In this document: positions 20,115-62,400 of the stretch, in pieces
How the letters are laid out: every line of letters begins with the position of its first letter
Numbering within the stretch: position 1 is the stretch's first letter
Assembly (NCBI GenBank): GCA_032622095.1
Contig: CP136063.1
Span: 32,552,987-32,616,986, forward strand
Direction of reading: 5' to 3'
Source of the DNA: Siphonodentalium dalli
Taxonomy: Eukaryota > Mollusca > Scaphopoda > Gadilida > Siphonodentaliidae
Length of the DNA: 64,000 nt
Notes under the pieces: generated by a model
Told to the model about the DNA's origin: nothing
The model's database searches: none
What the model saw: the letters and a program-made list of their open reading frames with translations, nothing else
Position numbers and translations under genes: made by a program

Positions 20115-21900
20115 AGCTCAACTTTACTTTGTAAAGTTTGAGCTATTTGCCATGGCTTGGTATCCGTCATCCGTGTGTGTGTGCGTGACTCGTCAACAAT
20201 TTCCTTTAGCACTGGCTACAGGTCGTACCTTTGGTCGGATCATTATGAAATTTGTCATGCCTGTTGACATGTAGATGGGAACGAGTCATTTTGGGGTCAT
20301 TTGGAAAAAAAACATGGCCGCAAGCGGCCATCTTGAATTTAAAATTTCAATCCATTAGCACAGGCTACAAGTCGTACTGTTCGTCTGATCATCATGAAAT
20401 TTGTCATCGATGTTGTAACTGGAGATGGGAACGAGTCATTTTGGGGTCGTTCGGCCAAAACATATGGCCGCCAGCAGCCATCTTGGATTTTACTCTTTGC
20501 ATGACTAAATCCTTCTGCATGGGCTACAGGTCGTAGCTTTGGTCGGATCTTCATGAAATTTGTCATCGATGTTAATATTGACATGTAGATGGGAACAAGC
20601 CATTTTGGGGTTATTGGGCCAAAAAACATGGCCGCCAGCGGCCATCTTGAATTAAAAATTTCAATCCATTAGCACGGGCTACAGGTAGTACTGTTTGTCT
20701 GATCATCATGAAAATTATCATTGATGTTAATATTGACATGTAGATGGGAACGAGTCATTTTGGGGTTGATTGGCCAAAAAACATGGCCACCAGCAGCCAT
20801 CTTGGATTTTACTCTGCATGACTAAATCCTTTGGCATGGGCTACAGGTCGTAGTACCTTTGGTTGGATCATTATGAGATTTGTCATGGCTGTTGACATTG
20901 ACATCTAGATGAGAACGAGTAATTTTTGTGTCATTCGGCAAAAAAACATGGCCGCCAGCGGCCATCTTGAATTTCAAATTTCAATCCATTAGCACGGACT
21001 ACAGGTCGTACTGTTCGTCTGATCATCATGAAATTTGTCATCGATGTTAACAATGACTTGTAGATGGGAACGAGTCATTTTGGGGTCATTGGGCCAAAAA
21101 ACATGGCCGGCAGCAGCCATCTTGGATTTTACTCTTTGCATGAATAAATCCTTGGGCACGGGCTACAGGTCCTACCTTTGGTCGGATCATTATGAAATAT
21201 GTCACAGCTGTTGACATTAATAAGTAGATGGGAACGAGTCATTTTGGGGCCATTCGGCAAAAAAACATGGCCGCCAGTGGCCATCTTGGATTTAAAAATT
21301 TAATCCATTGGCACGGGCTACAGGTCATACTGTTCTTCTGATCATCATGAAATTTGTCGTGGGTGTTAATATTGACATGTAGATGGGAACGAGTCATTTT
21401 GGGGTCTTTCGGCCAAAAAACATGTCCGCCAGTAGCCAACTTGGATTTTACTCTTTGCATGACTAAATACTTTGGCACGGGCTACAGGTCGTAGCTTTGG
21501 TCGGATCATCATGAAATTAGTCATGGATGTTAACAATGATATGTAGATGGGAACGAGTCATTTTGGGGTCATTCAGCCAAAAAACATGGCCGCCAGCAGC
21601 CATCTTGGAATTTACTCTTTACATGACTAAATTATTTGACACAGGCTACAGGTCATATGATCTTTTGTCGGATCATCATGAAATTTGTGATGGTTGTTAA
21701 TGACATGTAGATGGGAATTTAAGTCATTTTGTGGTCATTCGGTAAAAAAAACATGGCTGCCAGCGGCCATCTTGGATTTCACTCTTTGCATAACTAGGCC
21801 TTTCAACTTTCCACATTCCTAATCACTCCATTGACATTATGACATAACACATGAAATTATTCCCTTTCCAAGTTGAGCTTCAGTGTCATTGTCACTTTTA
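20115..21900. repeat. pearl-like tandem array, copy 2
   Basis: It has the same boundaries as the array at 9800: 'agctcaacttta' at the left and 'aagttgagcttcagtgtcat' at the right. Core units of about 150-165 bp again carry 'agatgggaacgagtcattt' and 'ggccgccagcggccatctt', with two alternating sub-types. This copy has no MITE insertion. Confidence 0.65.
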
Positions 21901-24170: not shown

Positions 24171-24638
24171 TAATGGCATTTTTCTGATGTGCAGGGGTAG
24201 ACATGCTTGAGACCCCGTCACAGTTTAATTCACACCAGTTTCTCAGGTTCTGTTATTTTACGGAGTTCGAACTCATAGTCCTGATAGATGTACATGTTCT
24301 TGTAGATGGTGATTTATGAGCTGAGTTTAGAACCACATAATTGGTGGGAGGGGTTCTGGTTCTGACCCCCCCCCCCCCTAACTTTGGTATTCAGTGGAAA
24401 ATCTGTTGTAAGTAGACCAACAAATGGCCACATTTAGAATATTTCTAACTTTATGAACTTGAGGTACCAGTTACAAAATGATTCAATCATGTGAGATTGA
24501 AGCCACAGGAACATCCATGTTGGTCGGTTGATAAACGTTTATCGTCATTTCAGCCGCTATGCCATGTCACAACATCAGTTTTACTGGTTGAATGACCACA
24601 TGAATAGTTAATCGCCCCACCCCACCAAACGGGCACCC
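24171..24638. other. flank of the retroelement, gene-free
   Basis: Ordinary-looking sequence with a C tract at about 24366-24379. No LTR, primer-binding site or reverse-transcriptase coding sequence is present, although these would be expected upstream of the integrase in a complete element. Confidence 0.6.
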
Positions 24639-26039
24639 ATGTTGTTCAGCTTTGGTTCGTTAATTAAGCTAGCTTATGTTCATATTATCAAACAAATGCA
24701 ATCAACAAATATACCCGAAAAATTAGCAAAAACCTTTATTCTCAAAGATGGTATCCTACACTATATATCAATATATAATGACATACCTAAATTACGAATA
24801 TATATAACGGACAAAATAGCACAAGAAGTTATATCCCAATATCACAATCTCGGCCATAGAGCGGTACAATCGCTATACGCGACCATACGAAACAGATATT
24901 ACACACCTCAATTGTTTGCAAAAATTGTCACATACATAAACAATTGTCATACATGCCGACAACGAAATGCTTATAATCCAAAAATCCCGCTTCAACCAGT
25001 CACTGCCCCATCAAGGCCAGGACAACTCATAGCTATCGATCTTATGGGACCATTTTCCCCCAAAACACAGTCAGGAAATAGATTTATCTTAACTATTATT
25101 GATCAATTTTCATTACACACTTTAGCATACGCATTACCTAACAAAATGGTGGATACAATTTTAGAAAGATTGAATTCAGAGTATTTCACTTTATTTGGAT
25201 CAGTTGAAGGCATATTAACTGATAATGGGTCCGAGTTTGCAAACTCTACCTTCACTGAATTTTGTAAATATTACCATATCAATCACCGCCTCACCTCGTT
25301 CTACTCACCCCAAAGTAATGGGAAAAGTGAACGCTCACATAGAAGTCTAGCATCAATCATTTCAACAATCACCCAAGCAAATGTAGAAAATTGGGACCTA
25401 TATCTAAATTATGCATCACAAGCAATGAACTTCTATTGTTCCAGTGTACATACACATTCACCATTTTTTCTAACTTTTTTTAGAGAACCACAGATAAGCA
25501 TAGACCGAATTTTAACACACAGAGAAAAGTATTTAGGAGAGGATTTTTTAGCCACCACGCTTCAAAATCAACACATTATTTTTAAAACTACAAAATCTCT
25601 TCTCGAAACAGCCTCTCGCGACCACAAACAGAACAAAGGTGGATCTATTCCAACCTTTAAAATAGGCCAATCCGTCTATTACAAAATCCACCAACCAAAT
25701 CACAAATTTTCATTTAAATATGAGCCGTTTTGGCATATCTTGAAACAAACAGGCCCCATATCTTACATATTAAGATATGACCTATCTGCTAAATTAACAA
25801 AATCACATGCTAAACACATCAAACCATCCCCCGTTGATTGGCCTACACCTCAAATTCCCAATCACTTAAAAAATAAACGACATAATCGATTTGCATTTCC
25901 ACCGAGTGAAGCCAGTGTCGATAATAATAGCTCTCAATCCACATTGGAATCAGACGATGACCTCAAAACAACAGCAATTAAGCGCGCTCAACTTGAGCGC
26001 TCAAACACAAGACGACAGTTCTTCAATACCATTGGCTGA
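24639..26039 (+). CDS. integrase (3' part of pol) of the retroelement, 5'-truncated
   Basis: The 466-codon ORF is the integrase end of a gypsy-type polyprotein, which inserts element cDNA into chromosomal DNA in the nucleus. A zinc-binding HHCC module is visible (H69, H73, C103, C106). The rve catalytic core has D134 (AIDLMGPF), D195 (LTDNGSEF) and E231 (SPQSNGKSERS), that is DD35E. A C-terminal GPY/F-like segment follows (about 360-380, with TGPISYILR). I see no chromodomain; the tail to 466 is polar. The first 20 or so residues come from DNA outside the element and the ATG at 24639 is probably fortuitous, because upstream pol is missing. The core has no stop or frameshift, so the truncation is recent or the ORF has been kept. 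A Ginger-type transposase shares this integrase fold but would not be expected beside an env gene and an LTR. Confidence 0.85.
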   Translation: MLFSFGSLIKLAYVHIIKQMQSTNIPEKLAKTFILKDGILHYISIYNDIPKLRIYITDKIAQEVISQYHNLGHRAVQSLYATIRNRYYTPQLFAKIVTYINNCHTCRQRNAYNPKIPLQPVTAPSRPGQLIAIDLMGPFSPKTQSGNRFILTIIDQFSLHTLAYALPNKMVDTILERLNSEYFTLFGSVEGILTDNGSEFANSTFTEFCKYYHINHRLTSFYSPQSNGKSERSHRSLASIISTITQANVENWDLYLNYASQAMNFYCSSVHTHSPFFLTFFREPQISIDRILTHREKYLGEDFLATTLQNQHIIFKTTKSLLETASRDHKQNKGGSIPTFKIGQSVYYKIHQPNHKFSFKYEPFWHILKQTGPISYILRYDLSAKLTKSHAKHIKPSPVDWPTPQIPNHLKNKRHNRFAFPPSEASVDNNSSQSTLESDDDLKTTAIKRAQLERSNTRRQFFNTIG

Positions 26040-26400
26040 ATTAGCCAACAGACTCATGGCTTCGAAACATTTTAATAAAACAGACAGCCAATCACCCCCG
26101 GATTTATCACCCAGCGACCAATCTAAGCCCCAAACACAGGAACCAAATATCATAAAACACAAATTAATTACGCAAAATTCTTATAGTACGACGCCAGACA
26201 CAAAATCTGATCGCGCAGATAACAAACGCGGCCGGCATCGTAAATTATATTCACCATACGCCAAACACACGCCTAAAGATTCATCGTTTTCTAATTCCTT
26301 CCAATATACATCACCCGACAGCCGTTCGACAAATTGGTCAAACGAAAGTACGGAAACATATGATTTATATCAGATGACAACTGATATCGAACATTCATAG
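25957..26400 (+). CDS. overlapping small ORF after integrase, unknown function
   Basis: A 147-residue ORF starts at an ATG 83 nt before the integrase stop, in the +1 frame. The product is hydrophilic, rich in Ser, Gln, Thr and Pro, with a basic patch (NKRGRHRK), and has no recognisable domain, signal peptide or membrane segment. A 17-nt palindrome (25984-26000) lies in the overlap. It could be an accessory protein reached by leaky scanning or frameshifting, or the remains of a longer integrase tail cut off by a frameshift mutation. I cannot tell these apart. Its length and the retained G-poor composition favour element origin. Confidence 0.45.
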   Translation: MTSKQQQLSALNLSAQTQDDSSSIPLAELANRLMASKHFNKTDSQSPPDLSPSDQSKPQTQEPNIIKHKLITQNSYSTTPDTKSDRADNKRGRHRKLYSPYAKHTPKDSSFSNSFQYTSPDSRSTNWSNESTETYDLYQMTTDIEHS

Positions 26401-26892
26401 TCATGTATCAAAGTACCTCACAATCACTAATGACAGATAATTTACATAACTTTTACTAGTATTATATAAAACAGGTTTTACAAAGGCATAACCCCACTGC
26501 AATTCTCCCATCCCACCCCCTTAGGCACAGAAATAGACACCCAAACGATAAACTTCGTGCATACCAGTGGCATGATCATTCAGTATATACGTTAAACAGG
26601 GCATCATCTCGTTTCCCAAATCTCTAATTCAATTATCGCTAACAGGTGTGCATTGAGTCATGAAGCCGAAGTAAATTTAACCGACATGTAATATATATCT
26701 TTCGCTAATGACTGACACTCGGCGTCTTTGACTAATTGTTTATTCACGAAACATGCCACCCTGTCGATCATTGCCTCTCGCACCAATCTCCGAAATATGG
26801 CAAACTCCCGGTCATGACTCAGTTACATCTTCATTCCCTCCAATATGCTTAACTCAATCATATATTCATTGACATAGCACACGAACGCTACA
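26401..26892. other. retroelement internal sequence, no gene seen
   Basis: A/C-rich, G-poor sequence between the integrase end and the first tandem array. No ORF or structure that I can support. Confidence 0.5.
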
Positions 26893-27690
26893 ATACACTA
26901 TATATTATACAGTAGGTTATACAATAATCACGGCATATTTCCCTCAATATCACTATCCCCTCCTGCCAAACAACGCTCTTTATCATAAGAACGATTGGTA
27001 CAGAAACCACGGCATATTATCTCTCAATGTAGACACCACCACCGCCACAACGCCACTATAATTATATTATATAGTAGGTGATACAATCATCACGGCATAT
27101 TTCCCTCAATATCACTACCCCCTCCTGCCAAACAACGCTCTTTATCATAAGAACGATTGGTACAGAAACCACGGCATATTATCCCCCAATGTAGACACCC
27201 CCCACCCACCACCGACACAAGACACTATAATAATATTATATAGTAGGTGATACAATAATCACCGCATATTTCCCTCAATATCACTACCCCCCTCCTGCCA
27301 AACAACGCTCTTTATCATAAGAACGATTGGTACAGAAACCACGGCATATTATCTCTCAATGTAGACACACCCCACCCACCACCGCCACAACGCCACTATA
27401 ATTATATTATATAGTAGGTGATACAATCATCACGGCATATTTCCCTCAATATCACTACCCCCTCCTGCCAAACAACGCTCTTTATCATAAGAACGATTGG
27501 TACAGAAACCACGGCATATTATCTCTCAATGTAGACACCCCCACCCACCACCGCCACAACGCCACTATAATTATATTATATAGTAGGTGATACAATCATC
27601 ACGGCATATTTCCCTCAATATCACTTCCCCTAATACTGCCAAATAACGTTCTTTATCACAGAACGATTGGTACAGAAACCACGACATTCC
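26893..27690 (+). repeat. tandem array 1 inside the retroelement (about 5 x 161-171 bp)
   Basis: Units recur with 'cggcatatttccctcaatat' at about 26931, 27092, 27260, 27432 and 27601. They also carry 'caaacaacgctctttatc' and 'gattggtacagaaaccacgg'. Copies are close to identical apart from short indels in C-rich runs; the last is more diverged. It sits between pol and the first antisense gene and has no coding capacity in either direction that is kept across units. Confidence 0.8.
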
Positions 27691-28264
27691 CACCATCATC
27701 ACTGATTTCCCACCACACATCTCACATACATTTACCGACATTATTTGAAGCAAACGTATAACACTCTTTACTATAGAGCGTATATTATATCAACCCCGGC
27801 ATTTCTATAACTAAAACCAAATTTATTTGAACGAACAAACAAACGCTCTTCATTCTAAAACTTAGATAACCCAATCAATAACAGTATTGAACTCTGTAAT
27901 AATTCTTGGCAGCGGTCTAATAATATATTTATCTCTTTACATTTCAACCAATCTTAGACTATAATTAAATAATCTTTGGCGATTTAGCACGTTTACAAAA
28001 GTTACTCTTTGTAGCTCAACCAATATTAACACCTTTGGGGCATTACCACGATTACAACAACAACAACAAAAAAATTACATTTCTTTTTCACTGAATTTAT
28101 CAGCAAGATGTTATTTCTACAGGCTGACACGGTGAATAACCCCAAAAACAATTCAATTCATGTTATTGTTGGCTAAACACCGTGCCAGCTTGCAGAATGC
28201 AAGCCAGCTCTTGATCCAGGGACGGTCCGAATTCGTCAGGTGCAGCAATCACAGCAACATCTTC
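27691..28264. other. retroelement internal sequence downstream of the first antisense gene
   Basis: No sense gene is seen. For the antisense gene ending at 28265, this is the 3' side. An imperfect inverted repeat (about 28120-28131 against 28177-28188) is present, and the first minus-strand AATAAA that I find is near 27820. Confidence 0.4.
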
Positions 28265-28540
28265 TTATAACACTCTCCGATGTTGACTCCATATGTCCAC
28301 TATCTGCTGCCTTTCATCTATGATCTCCAGCCGGAGATTTATCACCTTGTGGCATCTTTCTAACTCAGACACGGTACTAAAATACCGTGCCCAATCTATA
28401 CTGGTCCCTCCGGCAAGGCACACAGCAACTATAACATCATGAAATGCCAGTATGTGATCCACATACTGCATTGTTACCTCATATTGACTAGTTTCTAACA
28501 CAGCAACCTCAGCCTCCAAAAATCGCAAGTAATCAGACAT
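28265..28540 (-). CDS. antisense accessory gene 1 of the retroelement (91 aa)
   Basis: The minus-strand ORF encodes 91 residues from the first ATG (28540). An in-frame GTG 42 nt upstream is not a likely eukaryotic start. No known domain is recognised. It is predicted mostly helical, with Leu/Ile-rich heptad-like stretches at both ends (FLEAEVAVLE near 7-16; ERCHKVINLRLEIIDER at 61-77). The product aligns with antisense gene 2 with identities at 1, 2, 5, 8, 9, 18, 27, 28, 30 and 40 without gaps. After a 10-residue length difference there are 11 identities in 26 residues (60-85 against 70-95). A TATA box lies 52 nt upstream on the same strand. Such paralogy plus a promoter is hard to explain by chance. 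The function is unknown; a regulatory or dimerising role is speculation. Confidence 0.6.
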   Translation of the reverse strand: MSDYLRFLEAEVAVLETSQYEVTMQYVDHILAFHDVIVAVCLAGGTSIDWARYFSTVSELERCHKVINLRLEIIDERQQIVDIWSQHRRVL

Positions 28541-28584
28541 AATGAAAATTAAGTCAGAAATAACACTTGTCGATATTCCCACAC

Positions 28585-28592
28585 CTTATATA
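28585..28592 (-). promoter_or_regulatory. TATA box of antisense gene 1
   Basis: On the minus strand the sequence GAGTATATAAGG (28595 to 28584) contains TATATAAG 52 nt before the ATG. A start of transcription about 30 nt downstream would leave a leader of about 20 nt. The same arrangement is found for antisense gene 2. Confidence 0.55.
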
Positions 28593-28595
28593 CTC

Positions 28596-29164
28596 ATCTC
28601 ATATTGGCAGATAGCGTCCGTATCGAATCGAGACGCTGTGCCAAACCAAGCAAGCACTCTCGAAGATTCCCGAGGGACATGCTAGGCACTATCTATCTCA
28701 AATAGACCCACACGGTAATATATATTACAAACCCCTGTTCCCGCTAACAGCGAACCAGCTCTCAAGCGATATCTCTTCGATACATCTAAACATAATATCC
28801 AAAGATAAATAAACACACTAAACATCATCTCATAATCAGATATAACTCAATGCTGGCAAGTCCAGTGTGCATCGGTGCACCATGCACACAGGGCTAAAAC
28901 TTCCTTCCCTCAAACAACAAAAATAAAATTAATACAATAAAAATATGTTACACAAGTATCATATCAATAGATAGGAATATTTATACATAAACAAATATTA
29001 CCCAGCCAATTTATCTGCCTCATAAACATAAAACTATCCATAAATATTCATTAAACCCAAATAACCCAAATCAAGCGACCTACACAAACCAATAAATATG
29101 ACAAGAACACCGATAGGTTAACCTTCCACTTCCACAACACATACACCAGACCCCTCCCCCCACA
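28596..29164. other. retroelement internal sequence between antisense gene 1 promoter and array 2
   Basis: No ORF with support on either strand. The sequence 28600-28800 is less A-rich and may hold upstream promoter elements of antisense gene 1, but I recognise no specific site. Confidence 0.4.
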
Positions 29165-29738
29165 CACCACGTATCTAGTGAGATGTAAATCACAATATAT
29201 CTCCCAACATGACCATATCGTATATGTACCACCCCCCCAACTGCCCACAATACCCTAATTCACATATACATGTGCAGAGCTAAAATGAGCCTGAACAACA
29301 TGTATGTGAAAATCACAATAAATCTCCCAACACGACCATATCGTACATGTACCACCCCCCCCCCCCCCAACTGCCCACAACACCCTAATTCACATATACA
29401 TGTGCAGAGCTAAAATGAGCCTGAACAACATGTATGTGAAAATCACAATATATCTCCCAACATGACCATATCGTATATGTACCACCCCCCCCCCCCCCCC
29501 AACTGCCCACAATACCCTAATTCACACATACATGTGCAGAGCTAAAATGAGCCTGAACAACATGTATGTGGAAATCACAATAAATCTCCCAACACGACCA
29601 TATCGTACATGTACCCCCCCCCCCCCAACTGCCCACAATACCCTAAATCACATATACATGTGCAGAGCTAAAATGAGCCTCAATAACATGTATGTGCAAA
29701 TCACACTATATCTCCCAACACGACGATATCGTATACAT

Positions 29739-29780
<42 letters not shown>
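29165..29780 (+). repeat. tandem array 2 inside the retroelement (about 4.5 x 126-130 bp)
   Basis: Units carry 'gcagagctaaaatgagcct' at 29274, 29404, 29534 and 29660, 'aaatcacaataaatctccc' and a C homopolymer of varying length before 'aactgcccacaa'. The array ends in a C run of 41 bases (29740-29780). It is unrelated in sequence to array 1. Reading frames across it are not genes. Confidence 0.8.
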
Positions 29781-30246
29781 ACCGCCAAGATAACCAGAGC
29801 CGTGTGACAATGCGCGATCAAATATTATCATTACAATATAGATAGAACTACTATTCCATGCGTCAATTGCACTCCCCTAATACTATACAATCAACAAATA
29901 TTTCCGCCAATAGTCATGTCAAATATAGCAATAAGAACCTATATATACCAGTACACAATACGCATTTATTCATATGCCTTTTGATATCCATATTGACATG
30001 ACTGTTGGTATACCTACACCATATGACACATACATTTTTTAAATAATACAGCAATACTACTCGTCATTCACATTCAGATGTCCATGTGATGTTTTCAATG
30101 AAACCAATCTTCATTAGCACGATGTAACCCACGTTAAATTATATAGGCACAAACAGCTATCAAAGATTGGGCTCATCTTTCTTCTTCACTCCTCCTGCCA
30201 AACCTCCTCAAATCTCCCCCATCAGCCGGCCCAACTCAACTCCGTC
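29781..30246. other. retroelement internal sequence downstream of antisense gene 2
   Basis: No sense gene is seen. A minus-strand AATAAA (29970 to 29965), about 280 nt past the stop of antisense gene 2, is a candidate polyadenylation signal for that gene. Confidence 0.4.
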
Positions 30247-30552
30247 TTACCAGTCAGTCTGTTCTTCCGACGACAGATCTATCAACCTTCTCCTCTCTTC
30301 CCTAATCTGCTTCCTCAGATTTAAAATGAGGTAACACCTCTCATTTTCCTCTAGCCACAACGTACACAGATATCGATCGCTCTTGGATGATACCCCCGTC
30401 CGGGCGTGCTCATTTCCCCGCTCAAATTGATCGACTATCTGATCATTCACGTACGTCAGATAGATCGAATCGACGATCACCCCAAAATACCCGAGACCAG
30501 ACGCCTTCGCATTTCTTAACTTACACTCTAACTCACTTAAAAGTTGACTCAT
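30247..30552 (-). CDS. antisense accessory gene 2 of the retroelement (101 aa)
   Basis: The ORF starts at the first minus-strand ATG (30552); the frame is open for 17 codons upstream from a TTG, which is not a plausible start. The 101-residue product is charged and probably helical, with a C-terminal amphipathic stretch (ENERCYLILNLRKQIREERR, 69-88). It is a paralogue of antisense gene 1: shared MS..L..LE at the N terminus, VD.I at 27-30, and ERC, NLR, ER and D at a constant offset of ten residues. It has a central insertion rich in Arg/Ser/Thr (about 46-60) lacking in gene 1. Its TATA box is 62 nt upstream. It is divergent from env, which starts 263 nt (or 350 nt) away. The function is unknown. 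Confidence 0.6.
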   Translation of the reverse strand: MSQLLSELECKLRNAKASGLGYFGVIVDSIYLTYVNDQIVDQFERGNEHARTGVSSKSDRYLCTLWLEENERCYLILNLRKQIREERRRLIDLSSEEQTDW

Positions 30553-30606
30553 AACTGCAAAGATTGAAAGACAGGCCCGTAATATTTTCCAGCCATCATA
30601 CAAATG

Positions 30607-30614
30607 CTTTTATA
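30607..30614 (-). promoter_or_regulatory. TATA box of antisense gene 2
   Basis: On the minus strand GCGGTATAAAAGC (30618 to 30606) contains TATAAAAG 62 nt before the ATG at 30552, leaving a predicted leader of about 30 nt. With env on the other side, 30615-30815 forms a divergent intergenic region. Confidence 0.55.
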
Positions 30615-30804
30615 CCGCTATACCACTAATTACCTTTGTCGACACGCCTAACACACGCAGCGCTGCTAATTGGTATCCACACTGGCATCGCGTGACGTCA
30701 TTTTTCGTCGATTTCTGGGGGTACCCAGATACACAGTAAACTGAGACACACATTACAACCTACACCGGTCGAAAAATCTCATCGATTAATCAAACCAGTT
30801 AACC

Positions 30805-30810
30805 CATATA
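30805..30810 (+). promoter_or_regulatory. possible TATA-like site before env
   Basis: TATAAG lies 5 nt before the ATG at 30815 and about 97 nt before the ATG at 30902. It could drive an internal env transcript that starts after the first ATG. This is weak, and env in this class is usually expressed from a spliced LTR transcript. Confidence 0.25.
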
Positions 30811-30814
30811 AGCC

Positions 30815-33091
30815 ATGCCCACGCGAATCTATCTTTGTAATCAGATACCGGCTAACCCGCTAATACACACCTATATTTTTACATATAGGGGTGCGAGCGA
30901 TATGAAGCCCACAGAAAACTTCGTTAAAGCGACCCTCTTCATACTTATCATCGGCTTTCAAACTAGTGACACTATGTTAACTCGACAGAACATGTTATTT
31001 TTGCATCACCGGCAAATTGCTGTCTCAAATGAAAATTGGGATCTCAGTTTTCTCATCGAACTCACACCATATTATTCCTACATAACAAGACTTGCTAGCG
31101 ACATAAGGATGGCCCAAAATAAACTCAATAGCATTTGTGCCACGTTTCATCAAAGCACATATCACCATAACAAACCTCCATTCAGGAACGAGACAAATAA
31201 CATTAACTTTAATCTCATCAACATTTTGACAGATTTACAAACTGAATTAGCCGCGGCCCTCACGGAAACAAAACAAATCCAATATGAGTATCATAATTAT
31301 TATCAACTCCATAATACCAAAAGACTCAAAAAAGCAATATTACCAGTAATCAGCGATATCGCCAAATTTTTATTTGGCACACCTTCAATGTCAGATATTA
31401 CACATGTAGAAGATAACATACGAACCCTCTACCAAAACCAAAAAAAAATCCAACACGATACTCAAACCGCTTATTCTATCATGAATATCACACGCGTCAT
31501 TTCAAACGAAAATCGCCAACGAGTCAACACATTATCAACAACAATATCCAATATTCAAGCCACACTTCGAAAAGAAACACATCGAACTCAAAAACACGTA
31601 CATACAATTGAAATATTCACAATCATCAACGCTAAGTTTCTAGTAATATTACATGAAATACAACAAAATGTTATCCAAGCAAAATTATATTTGCGACATC
31701 TTAAAGTTCAAATTGCCTCTCTAATTAACCACCGATTAATACCGGAGATCATAAGCCCAATACATTTAAAACACGCACTTGACAGCATAACGAAATTACT
31801 TCCAGCTCATTTGAAGTTACCATTCCCCATAGAATCGGGGATTGCAAAATATTACCAACATTCGAACACACAAACCATACTCACAGACAGCAAACTAATC
31901 ATTACCATAACAATTTATTTACGCGATATCAGAATGCAGTTTGACATATTCCGCGCTATACCATTTTTTTATCCATTAGACCCCCGAGACCCAAAACTCA
32001 GACACAACAATAAATATACAGTTGCCCGAATCGATATTACTCATAATTATCTGCTATTATCTCCCGACCGATCCAAATATACCACTATTGGTGCCAATCA
32101 CCCGTGTATTTTAAATAAATTACCATATTGTAAAATTCAAAAAATTTCAATAGCAGCATCACATAATCACAACTGCCTACTAAACATATTCACCAATGAT
32201 ACAAAAAATACCGCCACAAATTGCCCTATAGCCATATACCCTCAGTATAATTTACCGTCCGCTATTAAGCTGGCGGCATGTACATGGCTTATAACAACCA
32301 CGAAAGCTCATACATTTACAGTAAACTGTCATCACAATCTCTTAAGAAAACGACCGTATAGAATCACAATTTTACCCCCCATCGCAACGATAACTTTACC
32401 ACCAAGGTGCATAGCTACATCAGCCAGTATCAAACTAATTGCATTCACAACTTTGAACTCATCAAACATCACCATCAAGACACAAATAACCCAATTACAA
32501 TCAACTATTGAATTACATAAATTGCCACAATGGAAGCCATTATTTTCCCAAATTCATAACTTGCCCCCTCAAGTATCGATTCCAAACAAGTTACCCCCCA
32601 TAAAGCAACTATCATTATATGATTTTCTGCAAACAGTCACTTCCCTGCAACCCATCAAACAAAAGAAAAAACAGGATTATTACCAAATTATCATTCCCGC
32701 GGTCATTACGTTTGTATTAATTTTACTGATTGCCATCTCAAGTCGCAAATACATTATTCAGTGTATCACGAAAATTTCCCAATACCAGACTCAACGCAAT
32801 CACAACACGCGACGAATTAAAATCGCAAAGCGACGAAATAAACTTAACCAAATGATAAAGGGAACTGATATGCAACTTCGTCACAGACTAACCCCACCAA
32901 TACCCAATGAAGCTACGAAAGATATTCATTTGTCTCCAGCTAAGGAACCTCAAATACAAATCACACAAGAAGATTTGACATTTCCCAAAAAACACCCGCG
33001 AGATGTTGATGCAGAATCATCCACATTACGACCTATGAAAATAATGAAAACTCACGCGTCCATCCATAACCCACCACTTAATCTATATTGA
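30815..33091 (+). CDS. env: envelope-like glycoprotein, F / errantivirus Env class
   Basis: The uninterrupted ORF has 758 codons. The likely start is the second ATG (30902, residue 30): it is followed by a signal-peptide-like segment (hydrophobic 39-48), and a plausible splice acceptor (AG at 30887-30888) lies just before it. A basic KRLKK stretch (169-173) precedes a hydrophobic segment with FLFGT (185-189). This order of basic cleavage-like site and fusion-peptide-like region resembles baculovirus F proteins and insect errantivirus Env. A helical region (about 195-330), cysteines at 431, 439, 454, 470, 489, 505 and 532, and sequons at 125, 224, 461, 548 and 551 follow. One membrane segment (about 624-642) is followed by a long basic tail of about 115 residues. 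Such proteins mediate membrane fusion; whether this one works is unknown. Class assignment rests on motif order, not a search. Confidence 0.7.
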   Translation: MPTRIYLCNQIPANPLIHTYIFTYRGASDMKPTENFVKATLFILIIGFQTSDTMLTRQNMLFLHHRQIAVSNENWDLSFLIELTPYYSYITRLASDIRMAQNKLNSICATFHQSTYHHNKPPFRNETNNINFNLINILTDLQTELAAALTETKQIQYEYHNYYQLHNTKRLKKAILPVISDIAKFLFGTPSMSDITHVEDNIRTLYQNQKKIQHDTQTAYSIMNITRVISNENRQRVNTLSTTISNIQATLRKETHRTQKHVHTIEIFTIINAKFLVILHEIQQNVIQAKLYLRHLKVQIASLINHRLIPEIISPIHLKHALDSITKLLPAHLKLPFPIESGIAKYYQHSNTQTILTDSKLIITITIYLRDIRMQFDIFRAIPFFYPLDPRDPKLRHNNKYTVARIDITHNYLLLSPDRSKYTTIGANHPCILNKLPYCKIQKISIAASHNHNCLLNIFTNDTKNTATNCPIAIYPQYNLPSAIKLAACTWLITTTKAHTFTVNCHHNLLRKRPYRITILPPIATITLPPRCIATSASIKLIAFTTLNSSNITIKTQITQLQSTIELHKLPQWKPLFSQIHNLPPQVSIPNKLPPIKQLSLYDFLQTVTSLQPIKQKKKQDYYQIIIPAVITFVLILLIAISSRKYIIQCITKISQYQTQRNHNTRRIKIAKRRNKLNQMIKGTDMQLRHRLTPPIPNEATKDIHLSPAKEPQIQITQEDLTFPKKHPRDVDAESSTLRPMKIMKTHASIHNPPLNLY
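30887..30888 (+). promoter_or_regulatory. candidate splice acceptor for env mRNA
   Basis: A T/C-rich run 'ctatatttttacatatag' ends in AG at 30887-30888, 13 nt before the ATG at 30902. A donor would lie upstream, probably in the missing 5' part, so this cannot be tested within the window. Confidence 0.4.
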
Positions 33092-33880: not shown

Positions 33881-33890
33881 GGGTGGGGGA
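33881..33890 (+). promoter_or_regulatory. polypurine tract (plus-strand primer site)
   Basis: GGGTGGGGGA stands out in an otherwise G-poor strand and lies directly before the LTR start, the place where reverse transcription primes the plus strand. Confidence 0.6.
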
Positions 33891-33953
33891 CATATGTGAG
33901 ATAACTACCCATTATAATCTCACAACTTGATTTAAACTATACGAATGTCCCAA

Positions 33954-33960
33954 TATATAA
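33954..33960 (+). promoter_or_regulatory. LTR TATA box
   Basis: TATATAA followed by AACCCC, about 60 nt into the LTR. In a complete element the 5' copy would drive the genomic transcript. Confidence 0.5.
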
Positions 33961-34298
33961 AACCCCAAACTCAGATATTCGTGTTCGGTTCTCGAAACCT
34001 CACACGTCTTATCATCAGCGAAGATATAAACACAATGAAGATGGCTCCCAAATATGGTCAAGAGAGATGACCATAACGGAGGAACCAATCCCGATGTGTA
34101 TTGCCAAACGCCTCATCTAATATGCATCCCAAATAGTATATAAGAAACAACCACATCCCATCACATCATGCTTTCACTAGACTCATCTCATCTAGAGGTT
34201 ATATCCAGGCATCACGCACACCAGGCATCACCCATTCGGGGACATCATTTCGCGGCGACCATTCTATTTGTACACACTGCATATATTGTTCACTACGT

Positions 34299-34304
34299 AA
34301 TAAA
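34299..34304 (+). terminator. LTR polyadenylation signal
   Basis: AATAAA followed by GACTTGTACC, 60 nt before the LTR end. It is in the position expected for cleavage near the R/U5 border. Confidence 0.5.
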
Positions 34305-34364
34305 GACTTGTACCTACTATATCTATGTGTTCATTAGCTCACAATATTTACTCGGAAGATAACA

Positions 34365-53431: not shown

Positions 53432-56400
53432 TACCAATATTTAGTGTGCTACTCCTGGTACTTTTCGAGTAATAAGGGTTGCAAAAGTGTCCAGTATAAT
53501 AATAATGAAAAATATTCGAAAAAGGGCCATAACTCTGTCAAAAGATATTGGACCAACATCTGGATACCATTATTTTTAGTAGACCTTAGATGCCTATATT
53601 CGCTAGAGATTTCGCGGTCCTCCTCCCATTAGTTTCTGAGTATTTTCAATTAAACAGAAAACGGCCGCAGTAGAAAAACAATATACTTCCTTGGTTACAC
53701 CATGGAAGTATAATAATAGGGAAAATCATGAGTGGAAAGAATCCCAGTTTAGGGACGTAAAATGTGAAGTATGGTGAGTATATGTTGTCAAGACATGTGT
53801 AGGTTTATCTCAAGTGTTTGGACGTGACCCCACCCCTGCCTCGAAATTGGGTGACGGGATTGGGAAAACATCAACCCTGGCACAAAATGCGAAGTTTGAG
53901 GGCCCGTATCTCCGTTAGTTTCCAACGGATTTTAAAATTATTTTCAGTTTTGCGATCTGCCGCTAACATAGATTGTATAGTGTAAATTTCATCTGATTTG
54001 GAGACGGATAACACTTTGATTATTGGAAAGCATATGGGCCCAAATATAAAATTGGACGGCCAAAATCTCCGCCATTTCCCAACGTATTTACGATCTGTTT
54101 TCAGCTTCGAGATCGGCTGATGTTGCAGATGTTATATTCTAAGTTTCATCTGATTCGGAAAAGAATTAAAAATTGGTACCACTGACCACCCCTCCCCAGA
54201 CCCACAATACTGAACCGACACTTGCAAAATTTGGCCCACCGCGTGCCGTCTTCAGTCCGTACGCATTTTCGTATCAGATGACATCCTATGTTCGATATCT
54301 TCGGAGGAGATGTGTTATCAAGCACATGGGCCCAAAATTGCAAAGTTTGAGGGCCCGCGATTCTTTTAGTTTTCGATCGATTTTCGAAATTCTTCCAGCT
54401 TCTAGATCGGCTGATGTTGCAGATGTTATATTCCAAGTTTCATCTGATTCCGAGAATAATTAAAAATTGGTACCACGGACCACCCCTCCCCAGACCCACA
54501 ATAATGAACCGACACTGGCAAAATTTGGCCAGTCGCGTGCCCTCTTCAGTCCGCACATATTGGCGTATCAGATGACATCCTATGTTCGATATCTTCGGAG
54601 GAGATGTGGTCACAAGCACATGGGCCCAAAATTGCAAAGTTTGAGGGCCCGTAACTCTTGCATGTCTTCTCTGATTTCAAAAATCCTTTCTAGTATGGAT
54701 TTGTTTTCGTTCAGGGAATCAACATACTTAAATAGAGGAATGTCAATCAAAACCTTTTTTTCGAAAATTTTGCCCCCACCCCAGCGTCAAAATATATGGC
54801 CGACCCTGTTCAATTTTCTTTTTCAGACTAAACTGACAACGGTCAACACGACTATGAAATCCAAATGCAGTTATCTCTAATGATACGAGAGTACAGCATA
54901 GTAAATCAAATAGAGGTTTGCCTATTTATGGGCGGTAACTCCTCAGGAAAAGCGCGGACACAAGTTTTGATGCCCGTGGGCAGCAGGGCATATCGAGGTG
55001 TGCATACGGTCCAATTTTCGATGCTCTGCTGCTTATAATTTCCGAGATAATAAAATGACATTTTTCAGATAAAGGGAGATAACTCCTCGGAGAAAACGCG
55101 GACAATATTCTTTATGCGACGATGGCATACAACTCTTTGACCCAAAGATACGTACCAATATTTAGTGTGCTACTCCTGGTACTTTTCGAGTAATAAGGGT
55201 TGCAAAAGTGTCCAGTATAATAATAATGAAAAATATTCGAAAAAGGGCCATAACTCTGTCAAAAGATATTGGACCAACATCTGGATACCATTATTTTTAG
55301 TAGACCTTAGATGCCTATATTCGCTAGAGATTTCGCGGTCCTCCTCCCATTAGTTTCTGAGTATTTTCAATTAAACAGAAAACGGCCGCAGTAGAAAAAC
55401 AATATACTTCCTTGGTTACACCATGGAAGTATAATAATAGGGAAAATCATGAGTGGAAAGAATCCCAGTTTAGGGACGTAAAATGTGAAGTATGGTGAGT
55501 ATATGTTGTCAAGACATGTGTAGGTTTATCTCAAGTGTTTGGACGTGACCCCACCCCTGCCTCGAAATTGGGTGACGGGATTGGGAAAACATCAACCCTG
55601 GCACAAAATGCGAAGTTTGAGGGCCCGTATCTCCGTTAGTTTCCAACGGATTTTAAAATTATTTTCAGTTTTGCGATCTGCCGCTAACATAGATTGTATA
55701 GTGTAAATTTCATCTGATTTGGAGACGGATAACACTTTGATTATTGGAAAGCATATGGGCCCAAATATAAAATTGGACGGCCAAAATCTCCGCCATTTCC
55801 CAACGTATTTACGATCTGTTTTCAGCTTCGAGATCGGCTGATGTTGCAGATGTTATATTCTAAGTTTCATCTGATTCGGAAAAGAATTAAAAATTGGTAC
55901 CACTGACCACCCCTCCCCAGACCCACAATACTGAACCGACACTTGCAAAATTTGGCCCACCGCGTGCCGTCTTCAGTCCGTACGCATTTTCGTATCAGAT
56001 GACATCCTATGTTCGATATCTTCGGAGGAGATGTGTTATCAAGCACATGGGCCCAAAATTGCAAAGTTTGAGGGCCCGCGATTCTTTTAGTTTTCGATGG
56101 ATTTTCGAAATTCTTCCAGCTTCTAGATCGGCTGATGTTGCAGATGTTATATTCCAAGTTTCATCTGATTCCGAGAATAATTAAAAATTGGTACCACGGA
56201 CCACCCCTCCCCAGACCCACAATAATGAACCGACACTGGCAAAATTTGGCCAGTCGCGTGCCCTCTTCAGTCCGCACATATTGGCGTATCAGATGACATC
56301 CTATGTTCGATATCTTCGGAGGAGATGTGGTCACAAGCACATGGGCCCAAAATTGCAAAGTTTGAGGGCCCGTAACTCTTGCATGTCTTCTCTGATTTCA

Positions 56401-59400
56401 AAAATCCTTTCTAGTATTGATTTGTTTTCGTTCAGGGAATCAACATACTTAAATAGAGGAATGTCAATCAAAACCTTTTTTTTCGAAAATTTTGCCCCCA
56501 CCCCAGCGTCAAAATATATGGCCGACCCTGTTCAATTTTCTTTTTCAGACTAAACTGACAACGGTCAACACGACTATGAAATCCAAATGCAGTTATCTCT
56601 AATGATACGAGAGTACAGCATAGTAAATCAAATAGAGGTTTGCCTATTTATGGGCGGTAACTCCTCAGGAAAAGCGCGGACACAAGTTTTGATGCCCGTG
56701 GGCAGCAGGGCATATCGAGATGTGCATACGGTCCAATTTTCGATGCTCTGCTGCTTATAATTTCCGAGATAATAAAATGACATTTTTTCAGATAAAGGGA
56801 GATAACTCCTCGGAGAAAACGCGGACAATATTCTTTATGCGACGATGGCATACAACTCTTTGACCCAAAGATACGTACCAATATTTAGTGTGCTACTCCT
56901 GGTACTTTTCGAGTAATAAGGGTTGCAAAAGTGTCCAGTATAATAATAATGAAAAATATTCGAAAAAGGGCCATAACTCTGTCAAAAGATATTGGACCAA
57001 CATCTGGATACCATTATTTTTAGTAGACCTTAGATGCCTATATTCGCTAGAGATTTCGCGGTCCTCCTCCCATTAGTTTCTGAGTATTTTCAATTAAACA
57101 GAAAACGGCCGCAGTAGAAAAACAATATACTTCCTTGGTTACACCATGGAAGTATAATAATAGGGAAAATCATGAGTGGAAAGAATCCCAGTTTAGGGAC
57201 GTAAAATGTGAAGTATGGTGAGTATATGTTGTCAAGACATGTGTAGGTTTATCTCAAGTGTTTGGACGTGACCCCACCCCTGCCTCGAAATTGGGTGACG
57301 GGATTGGGAAAACATCAACCCTGGCACAAAATGCGAAGTTTGAGGGCCCGTATCTCCGTTAGTTTCCAACGGATTTTAAAATTATTTTCAGTTTTGCGAT
57401 CTGCCGCTAACATAGATTGTATAGTGTAAATTTCATCTGATTTGGAGACGGATAACACTTTGATTATTGGAAAGCATATGGGCCCAAATATAAAATTGGA
57501 CGGCCAAAATCTCCGCCATTTCCCAACGTATTTACGATCTGTTTTCAGCTTCGAGATCGGCTGATGTTGCAGATGTTATATTCTAAGTTTCATCTGATTC
57601 GGAAAAGAATTAAAAATTGGTACCACTGACCACCCCTCCCCAGACCCACAATACTGAACCGACACTTGCAAAATTTGGCCCACCGCGTGCCGTCTTCAGT
57701 CCGTACGCATTTTCGTATCAGATGACATCCTATGTTCGATATCTTCGGAGGAGATGTGTTATCAAGCACATGGGCCCAAAATTGCAAAGTTTGAGGGCCC
57801 GCGATTCTTTTAGTTTTCGATCGATTTTCGAAATTCTTCCAGCTTCTAGATCGGCTGATGTTGCAGATGTTATATTCCAAGTTTCATCTGATTCCGAGAA
57901 TAATTAAAAATTGGTACCACGGACCACCCCTCCCCAGACCCACAATAATGAACCGACACTGGCAAAATTTGGCCAGTCGCGTGCCCTCTTCAGTCCGCAC
58001 ATATTGGCGTATCAGATGACATCCTATGTTCGATATCTTCGGAGGAGATGTGGTCACAAGCACATGGGCCCAAAATTGCAAAGTTTGAGGGCCCGTAACT
58101 CTTGCATGTCTTCTCTGATTTCAAAAATCCTTTCTAGTATGGATTTGTTTTCGTTCAGGGAATCAACATACTTAAATAGAGGAATGTCAATCAAAACCTT
58201 TTTTTTCGAAAATTTTGCCCCCACCCCAGCGTCAAAATATATGGCCGACCCTGTTCAATTTTCTTTTTCAGACTAAACTGACAACGGTCAACACGACTAT
58301 GAAATCCAAATGCAGTTATCTCTAATGATACGAGAGTACAGCATAGTAAATCAAATAGAGGTTTGCCTATTTATGGGCGGTAACTCCTCAGGAAAAGCGC
58401 GGACACAAGTTTTGATGCCCGTGGGCAGCAGGGCATATCGAGGTGTGCATACGGTCCAATTTTCGATGCTCTGCTGCTTATAATTTCCGAGATAATAAAA
58501 TGACATTTTTTCAGATAAAGGGAGATAACTCCTCGGAGAAAACGCGGACAATATTCTTTATGCGACGATGGCATACAACTCTTTGACCCAAAGATACGTA
58601 CCAATATTTAGTGTGCTACTCCTGGTACTTTTCGAGTAATAAGGGTTGCAAAAGTGTCCAGTATAATAATAATGAAAAATATTCGAAAAAGGGCCATAAC
58701 TCTGTCAAAAGATATTGGACCAACATCTGGATACCATTATTTTTAGTAGACCTTAGATGCCTATATTCGCTAGAGATTTCGCGGTCCTCCTCCCATTAGT
58801 TTCTGAGTATTTTCAATTAAACAGAAAACGGCCGCAGTAGAAAAACAATATACTTCCTTGGTTACACCATGGAAGTATAATAATAGGGAAAATCATGAGT
58901 GGAAAGAATCCCAGTTTAGGGACGTAAAATGTGAAGTATGGTGAGTATATGTTGTCAAGACATGTGTAGGTTTATCTCAAGTGTTTGGACGTGACCCCAC
59001 CCCTGCCTCGAAATTGGGTGACGGGATTGGGAAAACATCAACCCTGGCACAAAATGCGAAGTTTGAGGGCCCGTATCTCCGTTAGTTTCCAACGGATTTT
59101 AAAATTATTTTCAGTTTTGCGATCTGCCGCTAACATAGATTGTATAGTGTAAATTTCATCTGATTTGGAGACGGATAACACTTTGATTATTGGAAAGCAT
59201 ATGGGCCCAAATATAAAATTGGACGGCCAAAATCTCCGCCATTTCCCAACGTATTTACGATCTGTTTTCAGCTTCGAGATCGGCTGATGTTGCAGATGTT
59301 ATATTCTAAGTTTCATCTGATTCGGAAAAGAATTAAAAATTGGTACCACTGACCACCCCTCCCCAGACCCACAATACTGAACCGACACTTGCAAAATTTG

Positions 59401-62400
59401 GCCCACCGCGTGCCGTCTTCAGTCCGTACGCATTTTCGTATCAGATGACATCCTATGTTCGATATCTTCGGAGGAGATGTGTTATCAAGCACATGGGCCC
59501 AAAATTGCAAAGTTTGAGGGCCCGCGATTCTTTTAGTTTTCGATGGATTTTCGAAATTCTTCCAGCTTCTAGATCGGCTGATGTTGCAGATGTTATATTC
59601 CAAGTTTCATCTGATTCCGAGAATAATTAAAAATTGGTACCACGGACCACCCCTCCCCAGACCCACAATAATGAACCGACACTGGCAAAATTTGGCCAGT
59701 CGCGTGCCCTCTTCAGTCCGCACATATTGGCGTATCAGATGACATCCTATGTTCGATATCTTCGGAGGAGATGTGGTCACAAGCACATGGGCCCAAAATT
59801 GCAAAGTTTGAGGGCCCGTAACTCTTGCATGTCTTCTCTGATTTCAAAAATCCTTTCTAGTATTGATTTGTTTTCGTTCAGGGAATCAACATACTTAAAT
59901 AGAGGAATGTCAATCAAAACCTTTTTTTTCGAAAATTTTGCCCCCACCCCAGCGTCAAAATATATGGCCGACCCTGTTCAATTTTCTTTTTCAGACTAAA
60001 CTGACAACGGTCAACACGACTATGAAATCCAAATGCAGTTATCTCTAATGATACGAGAGTACAGCATAGTAAATCAAATAGAGGTTTGCCTATTTATGGG
60101 CGGTAACTCCTCAGGAAAAGCGCGGACACAAGTTTTGATGCCCGTGGGCAGCAGGGCATATCGAGATGTGCATACGGTCCAATTTTCGATGCTCTGCTGC
60201 TTATAATTTCCGAGATAATAAAATGACATTTTTTCAGATAAAGGGAGATAACTCCTCGGAGAAAACGCGGACAATATTCTTTATGCGACGATGGCATACA
60301 ACTCTTTGACCCAAAGATACGTACCAATATTTAGTGTGCTACTCCTGGTACTTTTCGAGTAATAAGGGTTGCAAAAGTGTCCAGTATAATAATAATGAAA
60401 AATATTCGAAAAAGGGCCATAACTCTGTCAAAAGATATTGGACCAACATCTGGATACCATTATTTTTAGTAGACCTTAGATGCCTATATTCGCTAGAGAT
60501 TTCGCGGTCCTCCTCCCATTAGTTTCTGAGTATTTTCAATTAAACAGAAAACGGCCGCAGTAGAAAAACAATATACTTCCTTGGTTACACCATGGAAGTA
60601 TAATAATAGGGAAAATCATGAGTGGAAAGAATCCCAGTTTAGGGACGTAAAATGTGAAGTATGGTGAGTATATGTTGTCAAGACATGTGTAGGTTTATCT
60701 CAAGTGTTTGGACGTGACCCCACCCCTGCCTCGAAATTGGGTGACGGGATTGGGAAAACATCAACCCTGGCACAAAATGCGAAGTTTGAGGGCCCGTATC
60801 TCCGTTAGTTTCCAACGGATTTTAAAATTATTTTCAGTTTTGCGATCTGCCGCTAACATAGATTGTATAGTGTAAATTTCATCTGATTTGGAGACGGATA
60901 ACACTTTGATTATTGGAAAGCATATGGGCCCAAATATAAATTGGACGGCCAAAATCTCCGCCATTTCCCAACGTATTTACGATCTGTTTTCAGCTTCGAG
61001 ATCGGCTGATGTTGCAGATGTTATATTCTAAGTTTCATCTGATTCGGAAAAGAATTAAAAATTGGTACCACTGACCACCCCTCCCCAGACCCACAATACT
61101 GAACCGACACTTGCAAAATTTGGCCCACCGCGTGCCGTCTTCAGTCCGTACGCATTTTCGTATCAGATGACATCCTATGTTCGATATCTTCGGAGGAGAT
61201 GTGTTATCAAGCACATGGGCCCAAAATTGCAAAGTTTGAGGGCCCGCGATTCTTTTAGTTTTCGATCGATTTTCGAAATTCTTCCAGCTTCTAGATCGGC
61301 TGATGTTGCAGATGTTATATTCCAAGTTTCATCTGATTCCGAGAATAATTAAAAATTGGTACCACGGACCACCCCTCCCCAGACCCACAATAATGAACCG
61401 ACACTGGCAAAATTTGGCCAGTCGCGTGCCCTCTTCAGTCCGCACATATTGGCGTATCAGATGACATCCTATGTTCGATATCTTCGGAGGAGATGTGGTC
61501 ACAAGCACATGGGCCCAAAATTGCAAAGTTTGAGGGCCCGTAACTCTTGCATGTCTTCTCTGATTTCAAAAATCCTTTCTAGTATGGATTTGTTTTCGTT
61601 CAGGGAATCAACATACTTAAATAGAGGAATGTCAATCAAAACCTTTTTTTTCGAAAATTTTGCCCCCACCCCAGCGTCAAAATATATGGCCGACCCTGTT
61701 CAATTTTCTTTTTCAGACTAAACTGACAACGGTCAACACGACTATGAAATCCAAATGCAGTTATCTCTAATGATACGAGAGTACAGCATAGTAAATCAAA
61801 TAGAGGTTTGCCTATTTATGGGCGGTAACTCCTCAGGAAAAGCGCGGACACAAGTTTTGATGCCCGTGGGCAGCAGGGCATATCGAGGTGTGCATACGGT
61901 CCAATTTTCGATGCTCTGCTGCTTATAATTTCCGAGATAATAAAATGACATTTTTTCAGATAAAGGGAGATAACTCCTCGGAGAAAACGCGGACAATATT
62001 CTTTATGCGACGATGGCATACAACTCTTTGACCCAAAGATACGTACCAATATTTAGTGTGCTACTCCTGGTACTTTTCGAGTAATAAGGGTTGCAAAAGT
62101 GTCCAGTATAATAATAATGAAAAATATTCGAAAAAGGGCCATAACTCTGTCAAAAGATATTGGACCAACATCTGGATACCATTATTTTTAGTAGACCTTA
62201 GATGCCTATATTCGCTAGAGATTTCGCGGTCCTCCTCCCATTAGTTTCTGAGTATTTTCAATTAAACAGAAAACGGCCGCAGTAGAAAAACAATATACTT
62301 CCTTGGTTACACCATGGAAGTATAATAATAGGGAAAATCATGAGTGGAAAGAATCCCAGTTTAGGGACGTAAAATGTGAAGTATGGTGAGTATATGTTGT

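Follow-up and report, generated by a model that had tools for sequence, protein, structure and literature searches.

Antisense genes P1 and P2 in an element with an env-like gene

The window, i.e. the whole 64-kb stretch of DNA that was analysed, contains a copy of part of a high-copy Ty3/gypsy-type element with an env-like gene. On the plus strand, the integrase ORF (24612-26036) matches the H2C2 and rve families of Pfam (E-values of 1.3e-13 and 5.2e-14) and ends in a C terminus that is GPY/F-like by eye. A 147-aa ORF from the ORF list (25957-26397, plus strand) overlaps its end. The env-like ORF of 758 aa lies further downstream on the same strand (30815-33088) and is followed by a probable 3' LTR with approximate borders drawn by eye (33890-34350, plus strand; TATA at 33954, AATAAA at 34299). 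We call this ORF env-like because of features recognised by eye, namely hydrophobic stretches near both termini and, in addition, a basic site followed by a hydrophobic stretch; it gave no Pfam match at E-values up to 1 and no useful PDB match by sequence. A likely signal peptide follows its second ATG at 30902, and a splice-acceptor-like TAG was noticed by eye just before this ATG. No frame for protease, reverse transcriptase (RT) or RNase H was seen by eye before the integrase among ORFs of at least 35 aa between 21600 and 24700, whereas another copy (L114) has RVP, RVT_1 and RNase H domains upstream of its integrase according to Pfam. The window copy therefore looks 5'-truncated in the linker between RNase H and integrase, with the break before about 24684 as judged by eye against L114. 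No second LTR was found in the window stretches searched, leaving the probable 3' LTR as the only one visible in the truncated copy. Outside the element, the window contains an upstream tandem array of alternating 155/164-bp units (20194-21800), which is related to the sequence at 9.8-11.2 kb, and a head-to-tail array of an approximately 1.72-kb unit with more than 99.7% identity (53432-64000) adjoining a 100-N gap.

Between the integrase and the env-like gene, two ORFs run on the minus strand, as the original prediction had it: P1, encoding 91 aa (28265-28540), and P2, encoding 101 aa (30247-30552). The TATA boxes proposed for them are also present, with TATATAAG at -52 of P1 (28585-28592, minus strand) and TATAAAAG at -62 of P2 (30607-30614, minus strand). 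The P1 box is part of an upstream block (28541-28640, minus strand) that also includes the leader and a CCAAT motif. An AATAAA downstream of P1 (27822-27827, minus strand) is a possible poly(A) signal found at 25 of 35 projected loci, some places being counted twice, with a gap in the other 10. The corresponding AATAAA downstream of P2 (29965-29970, minus strand) was found in 35 of 38 copies; its conservation of 0.92 is not above the mean of 0.93 for its surroundings. A repeat search identified two tandem repeats in this spacer, one with units of approximately 162-170 bp (26874-27711) and one between P1 and P2 with units of approximately 123-132 bp containing C-runs (29184-29773).

Homology of P1 and P2 and their relatives in a second family

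The C-terminal parts of P1 and P2 are clearly similar, with 17 of 46 residues identical and a blastp E-value of 3e-8. The original prediction had staked their homology on an alignment exceeding shuffled controls, and the local score of 80 was reached by 0 of 20000 shuffles, the maximum of which was 59. The gapless alignment claimed for residues 1 to 40 is also present, with 10 identities including the initial Met, but it is weak when taken alone because 774 of 100000 shuffles reach its score. For the two window proteins by themselves, the N-terminal local score was not significant (reached by 11926 of 20000 shuffles), and we rejected N-terminal homology on this basis, accepting it only with profiles. 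When the profile of P1 was compared with that of P2, the E-value was 1.3e-10 over 88 columns; judged by such comparison, homology over the full length is clear only when relatives are added to the profiles. A comparison of a P1 alignment with another alignment was disregarded because the latter already contained P1. No comparable DNA similarity could be accepted for the upstream regions of P1 and P2 in the window, as 698 of 2000 shuffles reach the score.

The search with P2 also retrieved places of 34-37% identity, from which we defined a second family of elements (family II). At one such place (C1:2.42 Mb), a P2-like gene, P2b, lies antisense, its ATG separated by 244 nt from the first env-like ATG, and the start of the env-like protein shares 19 of 45 residues with that of the window. 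A P1-like gene, P1b, lies antisense further in, after the C terminus of an integrase whose end is identical to the window integrase at 37 of 80 aligned residues. Identity between the two families is thus 42-46%, as measured over short stretches of integrase and env. P1b has TATATAAG at -64 and P2b has TATATATG at -51, so that a TATA box at -51 to -64 precedes all four genes. With all candidates scored (143 of 143 and 114 of 114), P1b was found full-length at 16 places, 15 of them open, and P2b at six. No tandem repeats were found in a 2.4-kb stretch of family II (L117). The 16 bases immediately preceding the ATG agree at 13 positions between P1 and P2b, a number reached by 9 of 200000 shuffles in a test chosen post hoc; an earlier cut of 15/16 lay above the 13/16 of this real pair.

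The scores of the pairs P1-P1b, P2-P2b, P1-P2 and P1b-P2b were each reached by 0 of 5000 shuffles, that of P1-P2b by 1 and that of P2-P1b by 105 of 5000. In an unrooted tree, P1/P1b and P2/P2b form separate groups with an SH-aLRT of 89 and a bootstrap of 91. The raw score of P1-P2 (80) is higher than that of P1-P1b (68), and the order of events is therefore based on position and tree together. Since relatives of both genes occur in family II in the same order and on the same strand, each with a TATA box, the duplication that gave rise to P1 and P2 probably took place before the two families separated. A different origin would be that P1 and P2 are captured host genes or a nested mobile element carried passively, and LTR elements do gain ORFs by gene capture, as the accessible part of one account describes (PMC7264820). 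We consider such an origin very unlikely because both genes occupy the same place in two diverged families, and because the genome searches with P1b and P2b match only P1b/P1 and P2b/P2 places, apart from three short, weak and unplaced P1b rows.

Copies, codon statistics and promoter-like DNA

We searched the genome (2.23 Gb in 9 contigs) for further copies. P1 gave at least 40 matches at 94-100% identity at the DNA level and at least 152 at the protein level; both numbers are lower bounds because 40 of 121 and 150 of 250 candidates, respectively, were scored. The original prediction depended on related elements retaining the two ORFs, and they largely do. P1 is intact in 35 of the 40 close copies (window included), the remaining five having one point stop each, and P2 is present in 34 of the 40 and intact in 25 of these 34. 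Two of the 40 aligned copies (L039 and L046) have no row for the P2 region. Among the matches listed, 59 env matches have P1 antisense upstream in at least 49 cases, P2 in at least 39 and both in at least 38. All 59 env rows entered this pairing, together with 131 of 152 P1 matches and 88 of 150 P2 matches; low and partial P1 rows were left out, as were P2 fragments, P2b rows and cross-hits of P2 to P1. Divergence among the copies of subfamily A is only 0.9-1.8% for six of the seven segments and 4.1% for the one separating P2 from env, pointing to a recent spread.

P1 and P2 are, by their codon statistics, protein-coding and under strong purifying selection across diverged relatives. At diverged P1 places (64-89% identical), the first gene is open in 11 of 12 and broken in L088, and a full P2 ORF is found at 11 of the 17 diverged P2 places examined. 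The median dN/dS is 0.065 for P1 (21 sequences; 116 of 210 pairs with finite dS above 0.1) and 0.076 for P2 (12 sequences, being 11 diverged ones and the window; 56 of 66 pairs). The P1 set consists of 13 sequences from the diverged places and the window plus 8 of 30 loci from the P1 protein search, eight being close to that of the window; L088 was omitted because its P1-like frame is broken, and the incomplete second gene of L085 was used in part. These medians of about 0.06 and 0.08 are far from the ratio near 1 that had been named as evidence against the genes. The other frames of the same alignments gave medians of 1.2-4.1, the highest coming from two pairs only. The mirror frame on the opposite strand gave 0.21 and 0.22 but has many stops inside. 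No frame other than the coding one and its mirror thus gave a low ratio. Third codon positions hold 63% of the differences in P1 and 69% in P2. Conservation in copies and the frame controls together rejected chance ORFs.

The same data bear on the idea that an antisense RNA regulates the sense RNA and that the P1 and P2 ORFs are incidental. The DNA upstream of P1 is more conserved than the gene (see below), as would be expected for the promoter of any product. The excess of third-position differences and the restriction of the low ratio to the coding and mirror frames argue otherwise, as does the likeness of the family II relatives at the protein level. We rejected an RNA-only role as the sole explanation because the frame controls largely refute it, and regard it as extremely improbable.

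Variation among the close copies carries less signal. Variants shared by several close copies comprise 5 nonsynonymous and 8 synonymous changes in P1 (ratio 0.27) and 6 nonsynonymous, 3 synonymous and 1 stop in P2, the corrected ratio of 0.76 being a weak signal. Variants confined to a single copy gave 0.47 for P1 and 0.68 for P2. Relative to subfamily B, P1 has a synonymous divergence of 0.26-0.30, roughly threefold that of the flanking DNA (about 9%), so that the constraint looks weaker, approximately 0.13-0.32, when the flanks serve as the yardstick. Synonymous divergence from the window is higher for P1 than for P2 in the same copies of two pairs, L078/L098 (0.70 vs 0.19) and L049/L106 (0.30 vs 0.09), which suggests that these elements are mosaic.

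The promoter-like DNA is conserved together with the genes. All 40 close copies have an unaltered TATATAAG at -52 of P1, which is also found in 17 of 17 rows of a wider subfamily alignment, and the TATAAA of P2 is kept in 33 of 34 close copies, with L032 as the exception. Among the diverged relatives, the 11 open P1 genes have TATATAA at -52 in ten and at -51 in one, and 10 of the 11 full P2 ORFs have a TATA match at -62 or -63. When the window is compared with subfamily A, the 100 nt preceding P1 show a difference of 0.5% and are the least variable of seven segments, compared with 4.7% for P1, 5.5% for P2 and 11.4% for the gap between P2 and env. Within subfamily A, these 100 nt are only marginally the least variable, at 0.9% versus 1.0% for two other segments. 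The gap between P2 and env (30553-30814) is the most variable segment, yet the TATA box of P2 within it is retained.

Approximately 90 nt before P1, containing the CCAAT motif, TATATAAGG and the leader, are nearly invariant in the 17 rows, in several of which the synonymous divergence of P1 from the window is saturated. A nearly invariant stretch of this size is long for a TATA promoter and leader. The block could instead be a sense-strand RNA or DNA signal for splicing, packaging or priming, in which case antisense transcription of P1 would start elsewhere, at the 3' LTR or at host promoters. The recurrence of a TATA box at -51 to -64 before P1, P2, P1b and P2b speaks against such a signal, which we think unlikely.

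P2 is missing from some copies. In two copies of subfamily A (L024 and L033) and two of another subfamily (L115 and L116), P2 has been lost at exactly the same junction, while its TATA box is still in place; separate breakpoints, suggested by the edges of BLAST matches, were rejected in favour of this single junction. Since the same P2-less allele occurs in two subfamily backgrounds, we infer recombination between the subfamilies. P1 is retained in L024 and L033 and beside L115; none was seen beside L116 in a stretch that stops short of the expected position. Eight env-P1 pairs without P2 among the matches listed have a spacing of 2120-2163, consistent with the P2-less allele, and one of them includes L115. 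Two further copies (L015 and L021) have different deletions of P2. The absence of P2 from an allele that has been replicated indicates that P2 is not strictly required in cis, and its absence from copied elements is as expected if P2 can be supplied in trans.

Likeness to known antisense genes and possible roles

The available parts of the published accounts describe antisense genes in LTR elements of plants, a fungus and some retroviruses, most of the plant genes having no known function (PMC7264820, PMC11963269). For the aORF-3R of plant Ty3/gypsy elements (Retand lineage, with TRP28; gene23 of maize Grande), a regulatory role has been proposed (PMC7264820, PMC11963269), and gene23 has its own promoter (PMC7264820). 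As far as these accounts go, the antisense ORFs of plant Retand elements are the nearest known kind to P1 and P2, both being located between pol and the 3' LTR. The tandem repeats of the long region between pol and the 3' LTR in elements with aORF-3R also occur in the window element. Unlike Retand and Grande, the window element has an env-like gene and two paralogous antisense genes, and its host is a mollusc, not a plant. The TRP28 domain (PF04195) was not found in P1 or P2 (Pfam, E-values up to 1) nor in P2b or a diverged P1 (up to 0.1).

HBZ of HTLV-1 and the APH proteins, products of deltaretroviral antisense genes, are likewise accessory proteins encoded on the antisense strand and transcribed apart from the sense genes; HBZ itself is a bZIP protein driven from the 3' LTR, according to the part of the source at hand (PMC10186651). 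In contrast, the TATA boxes of P1 and P2 are internal, 52 and 62 nt before the ATGs, which speaks against a 3' LTR promoter for these genes, and no bZIP domain was matched in either protein (Pfam, E-values up to 1). A non-plant example is the antisense gene brtn of Boty, an LTR element of the fungus Botrytis, likened here by its description in the available text (PMC7264820) and not by sequence. Errantiviruses and other env-bearing animal Ty3/gypsy elements likewise have a pol with protease, RT and RNase H (seen here in the sibling copy L114), an integrase and an env-like gene that precedes the probable 3' LTR. What sets the window element apart from them is the distance of about 4.4 kb from the 147-aa ORF to env, a spacer that accommodates two antisense genes. 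The literature on LTR elements of rotifers, annelids and molluscs and on Troyka, as far as its available text goes, describes no such antisense pair. No animal element with paired antisense genes was found in the open-access literature, represented mostly by titles and the starts of abstracts, so novelty is not proven.

Searches gave little indication of what the proteins do. P1 and P2 against Pfam (E-values up to 1), P2b and a diverged P1 against Pfam (up to 0.1), and P1/P2-type proteins against PHROGs and the sequences of the PDB returned nothing of weight; the weak Pfam names DUF3232, Fe-ADH_2 and MADD death domain were dropped as far below the cut-off. Viral contigs searched with env, with integrase and with the alignments of P1 and P2 gave no confirmed match, and none of the Pfam, PHROGs, PDB and viral-contig searches found relatives of P1 or P2 outside such elements. 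AlphaFold models of P1 and P2, built from two rows each, are of poor quality (pLDDT of 64 and 59); they consist of helices, including a long one at the C terminus. The P2 model had no Foldseek match in the PDB at an E-value of 0.001, and the amphipathicity of the C-terminal helix was no better than in shuffles. P1, P2 and P2b are acidic and P1b is basic, which does not favour a simple role in binding nucleic acids.

The original prediction of a duplicated accessory gene with separate antisense promoter-like DNA is borne out by purifying selection, conserved TATA boxes and the same layout in family II. We consider it likely that P1 and P2 are protein-coding, anciently duplicated antisense accessory genes with TATA promoters of their own, and that they act in trans; we infer their transcription, action in trans and role from sequence comparison. 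An ancient duplication would have produced P1 and P2, antisense to integrase and env in an env-bearing Ty3/gypsy-type element, and each gene would be read from its own putative TATA promoter, apart from the LTR. Separate promoters could permit expression of P1 and P2 while the LTR promoter is inactive, or in different cells, and their products would be small, probably helical proteins acting in trans. The retention of both proteins suggests that elements of this kind are able to operate a second gene programme with a switch of its own.

As for the role, regulation of the element's own expression or replication is the most likely, with about an even chance; such a regulator would work through a partner that stays constant, in the host or in the element itself. 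A regulator or adaptor of this type is favoured over a fast-evolving antagonist by the low within-family dN/dS and the conserved promoter DNA. The other role proposed at the outset, a host-defence antagonist, is possible but clearly less probable. P1 and P2 would then block host restriction, for example small-RNA silencing that their own antisense transcripts would otherwise feed. Small duplicated proteins, a dispensable P2 and extra copies of P1 in situ in some elements would fit, and the weak identity between the families (27% for P1 versus P1b), together with the dispensability of P2, keeps this role under consideration. Against it stand the within-family dN/dS near 0.06, which carries no arms-race signature, and the absence of likeness to any known protein in the Pfam, PHROGs and PDB searches. 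Another role, e.g. as a cofactor of the particle or of Env, is improbable.

Returning to regulation, we tentatively propose, with considerable reservation, that an animal retrovirus-like lineage has a two-gene antisense programme with internal promoters. In this programme, the paralogues, perhaps as partners, would jointly time the LTR programme, with P1 as the core and P2 as a modulator that could be borrowed between replicating elements. If true, it would be an invention parallel to HBZ and the antisense genes of plant Retand elements. The locus is of interest in that two paralogous antisense proteins, under strong constraint by codon statistics, are combined with conserved promoter-like DNA in a layout common to two diverged families. 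The many copies and the natural P2-less allele make the role of antisense accessory genes in a retroelement directly addressable.

Among the diverged copies, L085 (C3:55774247-55775180) contains two P1-like genes that are oriented alike and separated by about 500 bp. The second one has kept the end of the leader, but the 110 nt upstream of its ATG contain no TATA match. From its arrangement, the pair is a further duplication in place, and pairs of P1-like genes resembling it were found at four other places in the P1 protein search. Many diverged copies of both families are crowded together on C3 at about 50.4-57.6 Mb, perhaps in a heterochromatin or silencing cluster.
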